From positions 1 through 64,000 of the forward strand of contig CAMBRQ010000007.1 of NCBI GenBank assembly GCA_945870325.1: a stretch of DNA of 64,000 bases, given 5' to 3'. The position numbers and the translations under genes are program-made. The notes under the pieces were generated by a model that was not told the DNA's origin, made no database searches, and was given only the letters and a program-made list of their open reading frames with translations. Positions 1,380-41,440 of the stretch are shown here, piece after piece; within the stretch, counting starts at the first letter, position 1, and each line of letters starts with the position of its first letter. This DNA comes from an uncultured Dorea sp. (GTDB lineage: Bacteria; Bacillota; Clostridia; Lachnospirales; Lachnospiraceae).

Positions 1380-3368
1380 TTATTTCTGATTCCTGAACTG
1401 CATTGGAGTCATATTGTAAGCCTTCTTAAACATCCTGTTAAAATGCTCCACATTCTGATACCCCACTGTCAATGCAATATTTTCAACCGTCATATTACTG
1501 CTCTTCAACAACGCCTTCGCTTTCTTCATACGAATCTTCTTCACCAGTTCTCCAAACGTCATTCCAGACTTTTCTTTAATGTATTTGGAAATATAAGGTT
1601 TGGACAGATAGAACTTCTCAGCCAGGTCATCCAATGTGATATCAATATAATTCGCCTGGATATAATTCATGATCTCGATCATTCTGGCATCTTTGCAGCC
1701 ATCAGCACTTCCAATCTCTTCAATCTTATTCACTGCCACAATCAATGCCTCGATAGAAGCCTTGATAATATCAGCATCGATTCCTACACCCCAGAAGGTC
1801 TTGCCTTTGCAGATAATACCAACATAAGCAACCGCCTTGGAAGAAGAGCCTCTTGTCAGTGAATGCTCTTCATAATACCGAAGTTCATAACTGATATTAA
1901 AATACTGCTTAATCGCATTGCTGACTGCATCCAGTCGTCCGTTACCCATAGCGGTAATGACTCTGCTCTCACCCCCATGATTGATGGTTGCTTCAGCAGT
2001 GATGCCATCCACCTGTTTAAAATGACACTCATCGATATGGAATACCGGCTTGGTATTAATATAATTATCTGAGAAGATCTGATATACCCATTCCGGATTC
2101 AGTTCTTTGTGAGCCTTGTCGGATACATCTTTTACCAGATATCCAACCTCTTCTCGCATCTTCTGCGGCAGATTGATTCCGTGGCTCTGCTTCAGAATAT
2201 AGTTTACGCCGCCTTTCCCGGACTGGCTGTTAATACGGATAACATCGGAATCATATTTTCTTCCCACATCCTGCGGATCGATCGGAAGATATGGAACCGT
2301 CCATGTATCACACTTCTTCTCTTCTCTCCAGTTCATACCCTTGGCAATCGCATCCTGATGAGAGCCGGAGAACGCAGTAAATACCAGATCGCCTGCATAT
2401 GGCTGGCGGGCATATACTTCCATTCTTGTCAGACGTTCATAAGTCTCTCTGATGTGCTTCATATCTGAGAAATCAAGTCCTGGATCCACACCATGAGAGT
2501 ACATATTCATTCCCATCGTCACAATATCCACATTCCCTGTACGCTCTCCGTTACCGAATAATGTTCCTTCAATACGGTCAGCACCTGCAAGGATTCCCAA
2601 CTCTGCCGTTGCAACTCCGCAGCCTCTGTCGTTGTGCGGATGCAGGCAAAGGATCACATTATCTCTATAACTCAGATGCTTATTCACATACTCTAACTGG
2701 CAAGCGAATACGTGAGGCATTGCATTCTCTACTGTTGTAGGGATATTGATGATTGCTTTATTATCTGCTGTCGGTTTCCATACATCCAATACTGCATTAC
2801 ATACCTCAACCGCATAATCTACTTCCGTTCCAGGAAAACTCTCCGGACTGTACTGGAATGTAAAATTACCTTCTGTCTCAGAAGCCAATTTCAGAAGCAG
2901 TTCTGCTCCATCAATCGCAATCTGCTTAATCTCTTCTTTGCTCTTTCTGAACACCTGCTCTCTCTGCGCAACAGATGTTGAATTATACAGATGGATGACG
3001 GCATGAGGCGCCCCCTTAACAGCCTCAAACGTCTTCTTAATGATATGCTCCCTTGCCTGCGTCAGCACCTGCACTGTAACGTCATCCGGAATCATATCCT
3101 TCTCGATCAATGTTCTCATAAACTGATACTCTGTCTCAGACGCAGCCGGGAACCCTACTTCAATCTCCTTGAAGCCGATATCTACTAACATCTGGAAGAA
3201 CTCCAATTTTTCTTCCAGGCTCATAGGCTCGATCAGCGCCTGGTTTCCATCACGCAGATCAACACTGCACCAGATCGGCGGCTTGTCGACATACTCCTTC
3301 TTCACCCAATCGTATGTAACTTCTGGCGGCATAAAATATGCTCTCTCATATTTCTGATAATTCTTCAT
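1380..3368 (-). CDS. leuA: 2-isopropylmalate synthase fused to a C-terminal AraC-type HTH domain
   Basis: First enzyme of leucine synthesis: condenses acetyl-CoA with 2-oxoisovalerate. The 662-residue chain has the type-2 LeuA layout: DLRDGNQAL (residues 37-45, metal/catalytic), HPHNDRGCG (243-251), and a LeuA dimer/leucine-regulatory domain at about 440-550. After a short linker a complete AraC/XylS double helix-turn-helix follows (about 562-660), with helices around DLAEKFYLSKPYISKYI and ENIALTVGYQNVEHFNRMF. LeuA alone usually ends near residue 550-560, so about 100 residues are extra and lie in one uninterrupted frame. ATG 3368 is chosen because AAGGAGAGG sits just upstream; the longer frame to 3407 has no such site. 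No leuB, leuC or leuD lies nearby. Inference: a trigger enzyme that may couple leucine sensing to transcription. Confidence 0.92.
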   Translation of the reverse strand: MKNYQKYERAYFMPPEVTYDWVKKEYVDKPPIWCSVDLRDGNQALIEPMSLEEKLEFFQMLVDIGFKEIEVGFPAASETEYQFMRTLIEKDMIPDDVTVQVLTQAREHIIKKTFEAVKGAPHAVIHLYNSTSVAQREQVFRKSKEEIKQIAIDGAELLLKLASETEGNFTFQYSPESFPGTEVDYAVEVCNAVLDVWKPTADNKAIINIPTTVENAMPHVFACQLEYVNKHLSYRDNVILCLHPHNDRGCGVATAELGILAGADRIEGTLFGNGERTGNVDIVTMGMNMYSHGVDPGLDFSDMKHIRETYERLTRMEVYARQPYAGDLVFTAFSGSHQDAIAKGMNWREEKKCDTWTVPYLPIDPQDVGRKYDSDVIRINSQSGKGGVNYILKQSHGINLPQKMREEVGYLVKDVSDKAHKELNPEWVYQIFSDNYINTKPVFHIDECHFKQVDGITAEATINHGGESRVITAMGNGRLDAVSNAIKQYFNISYELRYYEEHSLTRGSSSKAVAYVGIICKGKTFWGVGIDADIIKASIEALIVAVNKIEEIGSADGCKDARMIEIMNYIQANYIDITLDDLAEKFYLSKPYISKYIKEKSGMTFGELVKKIRMKKAKALLKSSNMTVENIALTVGYQNVEHFNRMFKKAYNMTPMQFRNQK

Positions 3369-3530
3369 ACCAATAACCTCTCCTTCTTTTATTCCGTCCA
3401 AGTACACTTCGGCATCATCTTAAGAGTATTCTTCTATCAAAATCTCATTGACTCACTAAAGGCACTCGAATAATAATTATCAACCAAATTGTCTTTTTTT
3501 AACACTTTCTTATCCTAACATATATATAAC

Positions 3531-3562
3531 AAAAAGGAAAGTGGTAATTTTAATCACTTTCC
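3531..3562 (-). terminator. rho-independent terminator after the symporter gene
   Basis: On the minus strand GGAAAGTG and CACTTTCC form a perfect 8-bp stem around an 11-base AT-rich loop, followed by TTTTTGTT. It lies 86 bp past the symporter stop and separates that gene from leuA. The rest of 3369-3647 is AT-rich and must hold the leuA promoter, but no convincing -35/-10 pair or riboswitch was recognised there. Confidence 0.8.
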
Positions 3563-3647
3563 TTGATGTATTTTAATATTCTTTTTCTTTCTTTTTCCTA
3601 CCGCATTTTCAAATGCCTATTCTTGCACTCTATACATGCACTTTCCA

Positions 3648-5177
3648 CTAATTCGCTTCTAATGAACGTTTCTTTGTAATCGTTACCTTCTCTTCATAAC
3701 AGGTAAAGATACCATCAACCTTCTCTTTTTTCATCTTCGGTGTTACAAGACTCACAATCGGCACAATAATCAGACCTGCAATCATAGCAACCGCGCCTGC
3801 ATTAATCGGAGATGCAATGTAGTGCAGGAACATATTGGAAACGGTAATGCCTACACCTGCGATAAAACTTGCCCATACTGCCGCTTTGGTTACACCTTTC
3901 CAGTATAAGCCATACATGAACGGCGCCAGGAATGCCCCTGCCAATGCTCCCCAGGAGATACCCATAAGCTGTGCGATGAATGTCGGCGGATCAAGCGCAA
4001 TTACTACAGACAGTACAATAAAGAATACAACCAGTATCTGCATCGTACGTACCTGTTTCTTCTCGCTCATATCCTTCATCACATTGTCTTTCAGGAAATC
4101 CAGTGTCAATGTAGAACTGGAGGTCAGAACCAGTGATGCCAGCGTGGACATTGATGCGGATAATACCAGTACCACTACAATTCCGATCAGGATATCCGGC
4201 AATGTGGATAACATATATGGAACAATACTATCGAACACCACACTTCCGTCCTCTGCATAGATAGACGCATTGTCAAACAATCTTCCGAAACCGCCGAGGA
4301 AATAGCATCCTCCTGAGATAATAACTGCAAATGCAGTAGAAACTACAGTACCTGTATTGATAGATTTCTCGTCCTTAATTGCATAGAACTTTCCAACCAT
4401 CTGAGGAAGTCCCCATGTTCCAAGAGAAGTAAGGATCACAACTCCAAGAAGATTCAGCGGGTCTGGTCCAAAGAATGAAGTAAATGCTCCCGGCTGTCCC
4501 ATCGTAACCGGAATATCACTTGGAATCTCTGCCATCTTGCGGATTGCTTCAATAAATCCACCCTGTCCGCTTAACACTGCTCCTATAACCGCTGCAATAC
4601 CTACAAGCATAATAATTCCCTGAATAAAGTCATTAATCGCTGTTGCCATATAACCGCCAAGGATTACATAGATGCCTGTAAAAATCGCCATACCAATTAC
4701 ACAGTATGTATAAGGAATGTTGAATGCCATTCCGAAAAGTCTTGATAATCCATTATACACAGAAGCCGTATAAGGCACCAGGAAGATGAATACAATCGCT
4801 GATGCTGTAATCTTAAGTGCTTTGCTGTCGAATCTCTCACCAAAGAAGTCCGGCATCGTCTTAGAATTCAGATGCTGTGTCATAACCTTCGTACGTCTTC
4901 CAAGCACAACCCACGCAAGCAAACTTCCGATAAATGCATTACCCAGTCCGATCCAGGTGGAAGCAAGTCCATATTTCCATCCAAACTGTCCTGCATAACC
5001 AACGAACACAACTGCTGAAAAGTAAGATGTACCATAGGCAAATGCAGTAAGCCACGGTCCTACGGAACGTCCGCCCAATACATACCCATCTACACTTGTT
5101 GCATGTTTTCTGGAATAAAGCCCTACTGCAACCATAACTGCAAAGAACACAACCAGTAACACTAACTTGATAGCCAT
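3648..5177 (-). CDS. sodium:solute symporter family protein
   Basis: A 509-residue integral membrane protein of the SSS family (SLC5-like, near PanF/PutP), importing a small organic solute with sodium. Seen: about 13 hydrophobic segments from the N-terminus, the family region GGRSVGPWLTAFAYGTSYFS, and GGYMATAINDFIQG in the middle helices. The substrate cannot be assigned. Start: ATG 5177 has TTGAGGG upstream; a longer frame to 5273 would begin upstream of the transcription start predicted by the promoter at 5255-5283, so it is rejected. It has its own terminator (3531-3562). Its neighbours, a LeuA-AraC fusion and an amidohydrolase, hint at an amino-acid or amide-type substrate, but this is only context. 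Confidence 0.9.
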   Translation of the reverse strand: MAIKLVLLVVFFAVMVAVGLYSRKHATSVDGYVLGGRSVGPWLTAFAYGTSYFSAVVFVGYAGQFGWKYGLASTWIGLGNAFIGSLLAWVVLGRRTKVMTQHLNSKTMPDFFGERFDSKALKITASAIVFIFLVPYTASVYNGLSRLFGMAFNIPYTYCVIGMAIFTGIYVILGGYMATAINDFIQGIIMLVGIAAVIGAVLSGQGGFIEAIRKMAEIPSDIPVTMGQPGAFTSFFGPDPLNLLGVVILTSLGTWGLPQMVGKFYAIKDEKSINTGTVVSTAFAVIISGGCYFLGGFGRLFDNASIYAEDGSVVFDSIVPYMLSTLPDILIGIVVVLVLSASMSTLASLVLTSSSTLTLDFLKDNVMKDMSEKKQVRTMQILVVFFIVLSVVIALDPPTFIAQLMGISWGALAGAFLAPFMYGLYWKGVTKAAVWASFIAGVGITVSNMFLHYIASPINAGAVAMIAGLIIVPIVSLVTPKMKKEKVDGIFTCYEEKVTITKKRSLEAN

Positions 5178-5254
5178 AATTTTTCCCTCAACTTTCATCC
5201 TGTTTGTCACTTTAAACCGCAACGCTTCAACGCATTGAAGTTCAGCACTCACTA

Positions 5255-5283
5255 AGAATACCACATACTTCATACAATGTCAA
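5255..5283 (-). promoter_or_regulatory. promoter of the sodium:solute symporter
   Basis: On the minus strand a consensus TTGACA (5278-5283) is followed after exactly 17 bp by TATTCT (5255-5260). The leader to the start codon is about 70 nt and contains CTTCAA-tgcg-TTGAAG, a small hairpin. The site decides the start choice of the symporter. Confidence 0.75.
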
Positions 5284-41296: not shown

Positions 41297-41440
41297 AAAC
41301 ATGGCAAAGATAAAAACACAACGTAAGGGTATCACAGACTCTTACAGAACCGGTAGGTAGTCCGGTCACACCATTTTGGTGTAAGTAGCCCTCCCTCCTT
41401 TGGGTCGTCCGTTCTTTGTCCAAACAAATTAAAGGAGGAT
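41297..41440 (+). promoter_or_regulatory. yjdF-type riboswitch leader
   Basis: The 150-nt leader of a yjdF gene. It contains GTAAGG...CTTAC, ACCGG-taggtagt-CCGGT and ACACC-attt-GGTGT hairpins in a row, followed by a CCTCC-rich segment (41391-41398) able to pair with the AAAGGAGG ribosome site at 41431-41438. yjdF leaders are known riboswitches that bind aromatic heterocyclic compounds and turn translation on by freeing the ribosome site. Assignment rests on the gene context, the multi-hairpin form and the pyrimidine block; the consensus was not checked by a covariance model. Confidence 0.72.

Follow-up and report, generated by a model that had tools for sequence, protein, structure and literature searches.

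A 2-isopropylmalate synthase joined to an AraC-type DNA-binding domain, and a putative operator upstream of its own gene, in Lachnospiraceae

Within the 64-kb stretch of DNA considered here (hereafter 'the window'), a single uninterrupted reading frame on the reverse strand, at positions 1380-3368 (662 codons and a stop), joins all of the domains of a leucine-regulated 2-isopropylmalate synthase, LeuA, to an AraC-type DNA-binding domain. This fused leuA-araC gene raises the question of whether an enzyme of leucine synthesis might also act as the feedback transcription factor of its own gene. The initial annotation of the locus had proposed that it could, and the proposal finds support in a conserved, operator-like block of sequence that lies upstream of the fused gene and is nearly absent from genes that encode plain LeuA.

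The fused chain and its relatives

The product of the frame is 662 amino acids in length when translated from its ATG codon, and an alternative upstream GTG start would produce a chain of 675. Pfam matches above the curated cut-offs identify, in order, a catalytic HMGL-like barrel (residues 32-308; window 2445-3275, on the reverse strand as for all features of this gene), an IPMS_D2 domain (residues 327-393; 2190-2390), the leucine-regulatory domain LeuA_dimer (residues 423-549; 1722-2102; 89.9 bits against a cut-off of 24.9) and an AraC-type double helix-turn-helix (HTH), the last of which is matched both by HTH_18 (residues 582-661; 1386-1625; 78.2 bits against 33.6) and by HTH_AraC (residues 621-660; 49 bits against 26.6). 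The NCBIfam model NF002991, '2-isopropylmalate synthase', extends over residues 4-548 with 807.6 bits (cut-off 455), and the narrower model TIGR00970 falls slightly below its own cut-off (673.1 against 697.4). Both collections thus confirm the initial reading of one frame as a complete LeuA, with its leucine-regulatory domain, followed by an AraC double HTH. Because Pfam finds only the LeuA domains and the HTH in the chain, and no separate AraC-type sensor domain, the protein would act like an AraC regulator rather than belong among the standard members of that group.

Six residues that we take to be the catalytic residues of LeuA (R39, D40, H243, H245, H337 and Y360) are invariant across 28 sequences and aligned with those of the Mycobacterium tuberculosis enzyme, and the stretch G475-A481 within LeuA_dimer is also invariant across 28 sequences. 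In sequence comparisons with the PDB, M. tuberculosis LeuA aligns at residues 25-517 and 521-548, and AraC-type regulators align at residues from approximately 560 to 660. An AlphaFold2 model computed from 28 sequences (mean pLDDT 77.8, pTM 0.51), in which the relative placing of the domains is unreliable, is confident across the HTH (pLDDT 82-89 per block over residues 571-660) and falls below a pLDDT of 50 at residues 322-346 and 352-384. The top match of that model among solved structures is again M. tuberculosis LeuA (PDB 1sr9, 3fig), which is the best match by sequence as well as by fold. At 44-46% identity in the fold alignment, it has the catalytic, linker and regulatory domains of the fused chain but no HTH. 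No list of leucine contacts was found in the accessible part of PMC11057210. The family model, the catalytic residues and the leucine-regulatory domain all point to a type-2 2-isopropylmalate synthase, for which both synthase activity and inhibition by leucine are predicted.

The fused gene is flanked on the same strand by genes for an amidohydrolase (86-1330) and a sodium symporter (3648-5273), and it stands apart from leuC and leuD, which are located on contig 12 of the same assembly, and from leuB-ilvD-ilvB, located on contig 20; the surroundings of the gene are therefore as first described. In a genome 82.5% complete, no LeuA_dimer match other than LeuA-AraC was found, which makes it most likely that this is the strain's biosynthetic isopropylmalate synthase. 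Elsewhere in the window, on the forward strand, an azaaromatic (yjdF) riboswitch was recognized at 41300-41428 (64.8 bits; gathering score 45).

The same set of LeuA and HTH domains is found in all 120 relatives among the matches listed (7984 were scored), and where those matches carry a database name it is simply 2-isopropylmalate synthase. In named genomes, 53 of 62 loci match over residues 1 to 660-662; two others (L060, L068) end at contig ends but include HTH residues, one (L057) ends before the HTH, and six (L061-L064, L069, L070) encode plain LeuA. Recurrence of the full domain set and of the full chain across these relatives, and across genomes of the family, rules out the frameshift or assembly error that the initial annotation had named as a possible source of the fusion. 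Named hosts of the fused form include Dorea, Merdimonas faecis, Mordavella massiliensis, Faecalicatena contorta, Extibacter muris, Sporofaciens musculi and Cuneatibacter caecimuris, together with Ruminobacter amylophilus from another phylum. Judged by these relatives, the DNA of the window would come from a member of the Lachnospiraceae.

Among 250 genomes of the family, one per genus, a LeuA match (threshold E 1e-60) was obtained in 229, comprising 60 fused forms (59 complete, and one, in G154, that ends at a contig end), two split forms and 167 plain forms, with plain status resting partly on E-value alone for matches weaker than about 2e-186. A class-wide sample of 147 genomes gave a LeuA match at E 1e-200 in 34, and one of the 29 that lie outside the family is fused. 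That chain (G316:C41:83-2059), from another family of the same class, displays 70% identity over residues 2-660. Over 54 full chains, the mean share of the majority residue is 90% in the catalytic part, 82% in LeuA_dimer, 70% in the linker and 85% at the HTH end, and conservation is strong in the recognition-helix region GYQNVEHFNR.FKK.

LeuA-AraC chains are thus numerous, occurring for example in 60 of the 250 sampled genera of the family, and were placed on a tree of 58 rows (loci thinned by hand; L129, equal to L056, and L135, equal to L054, excluded), on which a single origin of the fusion is not rejected (p-AU 0.109), yet not established. Alignments were likewise thinned by hand (A1, 37 of 50 loci; A2, 28 loci). 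The remark that the architecture was without a known description stands in so far as none was found in the open-access literature, as judged by titles and the beginnings of abstracts; the architecture is nevertheless no rarity of this one genome, and the proteins themselves are already in public databases.

A conserved block upstream of the fused gene

Alignment of upstream regions revealed an operator-like block (102-209 bp before the leuA start codon) that is conserved among loci whose surrounding sequences differ. In the window, on the reverse strand, it begins with putative operator A, composed of half-site 1 (TTAAAATACATCAA, 3563-3576) and half-site 2 (TTAAAATTACCACT, 3540-3553) at a distance of 23 bp, and continues with a predicted extended -10 element (TATGTTAGGAT, 3512-3522), assigned by its fixed spacing from an anchor sequence, and with putative operator B (3470-3502), a further copy, close to where transcription is predicted to begin, that is formed by TTAAAAAAAGACAA (3489-3502) and TTGATAATTATTAT (3470-3483). 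A sequence resembling a ribosome-binding site (AAGGAGAGG, 3377-3385) was assigned by eye.

The strict anchor is matched in 50 of 56 genes with readable starts (the window gene, 53 full fusions, and L057 and L068, both at contig ends; L060, without a start, was left out) and in none of five plain genes. The genes that lack it are L050, L053 and L055, which nevertheless score above 5 with a weight matrix of operator A, L065 and L066, in which a variant of the block is one base shorter and scores below 0, and L051, which was left out of weight-matrix scoring. The distance from the anchor to the beginning of the extended -10 is 47 bp in 49 of the 50 loci and 46 bp in L052, whose site is one base shorter; operator B is present in 44 of the 50, at 72-75 bp from operator A by the measure of the script. 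At the block-bearing promoters, no -35 hexamer better than background was seen at 16-18 bp. A direct-repeat test of the block gave identities of 0.57 at an offset of 22 and 0.46 at 23 (median 0.31), and the repeat structure is suggestive only, because an offset of 13 also scores 0.55. A terminator-like stem of 12 bp at 3534-3564 overlaps half-site 2 of operator A, and is perhaps the terminator of the symporter gene, the same letters being used twice.

The block was modelled by sequence alone from 37 sequences, and this model (R1) was searched against the 250 family genomes. The kilobase upstream of LeuA contains a match in 47 of the 60 fused genomes, in both split genomes and in one of the 167 plain genomes (Fisher p 2e-35, which treats non-independent genomes as independent), leaving 13 fused genomes with no R1 match near leuA. 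The lone plain match (G249; E 5.8e-4; model positions 14-99) overlies the first part of a T-box leader, and weak matches in two other plain genomes (G081, G160) were not placed relative to leuA. On the tree, the operator A weight matrix exceeds 5 in 36 of 45 HTH-bearing rows and in none of 13 plain rows (plain maximum -10.6), with L052 among the nine HTH-bearing rows below that threshold; these counts are to be read with the fact that R1 and the matrix were both trained on fused loci, and that at least G138, G161 and G231 are apparently training records. The tree holds only three independent pairs, of which on average 2.7 favour a link between block and HTH and none goes against it, a number that cannot reach 0.05.

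Several individual loci bear on the same association. Two plain leuA genes (L061, L114) are nested within the fused group, and their loci contain neither an HTH nor an operator; in G225, the recognition region has diverged and the operator was not found. Ruminobacter amylophilus carries the fusion together with the operator (score 17.1, control -10.3), which fits a joint transfer of the two. In one of the split forms (G072; L103 2192-4212), an HTH frame of 83 residues lies about 65 bases behind a LeuA of 567 residues, and because a run of eight A is found near the junction, the split may represent slippage or a sequence error, or else a true division of the gene. In the other (G056), the HTH has its own frame, which overlaps the last part of a LeuA of 564 residues. 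Operators are kept in both G072 and G056 (scores 7.7 and 27.8, respectively), and that of G056 consists of two identical 15-mers, GATTAAATTTAATCA, 23 bp apart.

R1 matches the genome of the window once, upstream of leuA itself; this single match does not support the symporter promoter, which the initial annotation had put forward as a possible target, and the symporter was rejected as such. A pattern search of the same genome that allowed up to three mismatches returned 18 places, one of them a perfect match (leuA) and the other 17 at two to three mismatches; a reversed control also returned 18. The strain's own leuCD and leuB were also rejected as targets (leuC -15.6 against a reversed control of -19.1; leuB -16.8 against -19.2). 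In other fused or split genomes, an operator is found upstream of leuC in two of 61 regions (G194, score 22.0; G202, 13.7), and the remaining 59 score -2.8 or lower, with which R1 run with filters off agrees; the two leuCD sites are the most direct tie between the operator and leucine synthesis. In 13 of the 62 fused or split genomes (G186, G147, G131, G072, G092, G012, G217, G161, G189, G184, G221, G007, G085), the only LeuC-like proteins found have 43-47% identity to the strain's own LeuC, in most cases as two in tandem, and because of that low identity the corresponding regions may not be true leuC promoters.

Second R1 sites were recorded in a few genomes. A strong operator-like site on contig C11 of G042 (L096 1977-2061; E 6e-7), away from the leuA and leuC genes of that genome, lies upstream of a PspA/IM30-type gene; one on G217 C1 is flanked by an ABC transporter gene and a gene of the sodium:neurotransmitter symporter type; and others are found on G037 C10, G037 C140 and G130 C150. 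All of these may be due to chance.

Leader RNAs, operators and a possible leucine switch

T-box RNAs sense uncharged tRNA, and in most of the plain relatives examined the same leuA gene is preceded by a predicted leader of this kind. In a scan of loci that were chosen rather than sampled at random, Rfam identified a T-box leader at 11 of 13 plain rows of the tree (L062, L063, L064, L070, L105-L109, L111, L112) and at the fused loci L065, L066, L110, L113, L124, L126, L131 and L132; at the Rfam gathering score none was found at fused L123 and L127, at split L103 and L104, or in the 64-kb window. In G225, a T-box-like leader that is below the Rfam threshold can be seen by eye. At L110, L113, L124, L126, L131 and L132, all of which are fused, an operator site (scores 6.2-38.5) lies upstream of the T-box. 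Three states therefore exist (T-box alone, T-box with operator, and operator alone), and the window gene displays the last of them. The sequences suggest that at this gene an operator and protein switch replaced the T-box, and that the change proceeded in that direction.

We consider it probable that LeuA-AraC binds the operator-like block before its own gene and adjusts its own transcription to the level of leucine. The protein would then be a trigger enzyme that autoregulates by leucine, its DNA binding, its response to leucine and the sign of that response all being predicted. At low leucine, the dimer formed through the LeuA regulatory domain would set its two HTH units onto the paired tandem half-sites of operator A, next to the extended -10, and so bring in RNA polymerase. 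Once leucine occupies that domain, the rearrangement by which it inhibits the enzyme would also swing the HTH units off these half-sites, possibly to operator B close to the transcription start, and the promoter would shut. A single chain would in this way be enzyme, sensor and regulator, with its own gene as the sole target found in the genome of the window. The activating sign, and looping between operators A and B, are guesses made from geometry and analogy: the lack of a -35 element better than background is expected of a promoter that would be activated, but activation is unproven because an extended -10 promoter can work without a -35. The fuller account, in which a two-state switch between A and B forms a single-locus leucine loop that was first added to a T-box in Lachnospiraceae, later displaced this RNA, passed with its operator into another phylum and in some lineages took in leuCD, is put forward tentatively and falls somewhat short of an even chance.

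The strongest rival to activation, although one that we regard as rather unlikely, is that LeuA-AraC is a repressor only, which when loaded with leucine would occupy operators A and B and block a strong extended -10 promoter. The placing of operator B near the predicted start in most loci, and the ability of such a promoter to fire alone, are consistent with repression; in six of the 50 loci, however, operator B was not found although operator A is present at its constant distance from the -10, and operator A appears to occupy the position of a class II activator. It is improbable that the block instead serves another, separate regulator, with the HTH of LeuA having some other target or sensing something else. 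The 28 AraC-type HTH matches in the genome mean that other regulators of the type exist, but the block tracks the HTH through fused and split genomes, occurs in only a single plain genome and is missing from the nested plain genes. A further reading, and a very improbable one, takes the HTH to have lost DNA binding and to serve the enzyme as an added part for structure or oligomerisation; G225, which keeps a diverged HTH with no detectable operator, would agree with it, whereas the conservation of the recognition-helix region and the co-occurrence of block and HTH argue against it. That the block is merely the terminator of the symporter plus an ordinary promoter is, despite the 12-bp stem, scarcely credible, given that L035, L042 and others lose the stem and keep the half-site letters, that the upstream genes differ among loci, and that the block does not go with plain leuA.

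Known systems and significance

Autoregulation by LeuA-AraC, the reading preferred here, has counterparts in PutA, BirA and NadR, which are described in the accessible part of PMC8249747 as trigger enzymes, that is, as enzymes that gained a DNA-binding domain. LeuA-AraC is of this type, in that enzyme and DNA-binding domain are united in one protein. According to the same part of that source, PutA binds only the putA-putP spacer and controls only that region, which is comparable to the single site found for LeuA-AraC. LeuA-AraC differs from them as a biosynthetic LeuA that possesses an allosteric domain for its own end product and carries a C-terminal AraC double HTH, for which DNA binding is predicted.

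In the arabinose operon, AraC recruits RNA polymerase when it is bound at araI1 and araI2, and when bound at araI1 and araO2 it makes a loop that represses (PMC4760080, accessible part). A double HTH, two tandem sites by the promoter and a further site are shared with LeuA-AraC, and would fit a switch of two states. LeuA-AraC differs from AraC in having no match to the arabinose-type sensor domain, so that sensing would fall to the LeuA regulatory domain, and in having its second site near the transcription start rather than far upstream, any loop being hypothetical.

If the proposal is true, a chain that both senses leucine and binds DNA in response would lend itself to use as a biosensor. 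Because the named relatives carry the 2-isopropylmalate synthase label, such a regulator would hide behind the name of an enzyme. The series of loci with a T-box only, with T-box and operator, with operator only, with the HTH split off and with the HTH lost makes the replacement of an RNA switch by a protein switch testable. Inhibition of the enzyme and control of its gene would both be read from one leucine pocket, and in a large group of gut bacteria a core enzyme of amino-acid synthesis would double as the transcription factor that senses its own end product.
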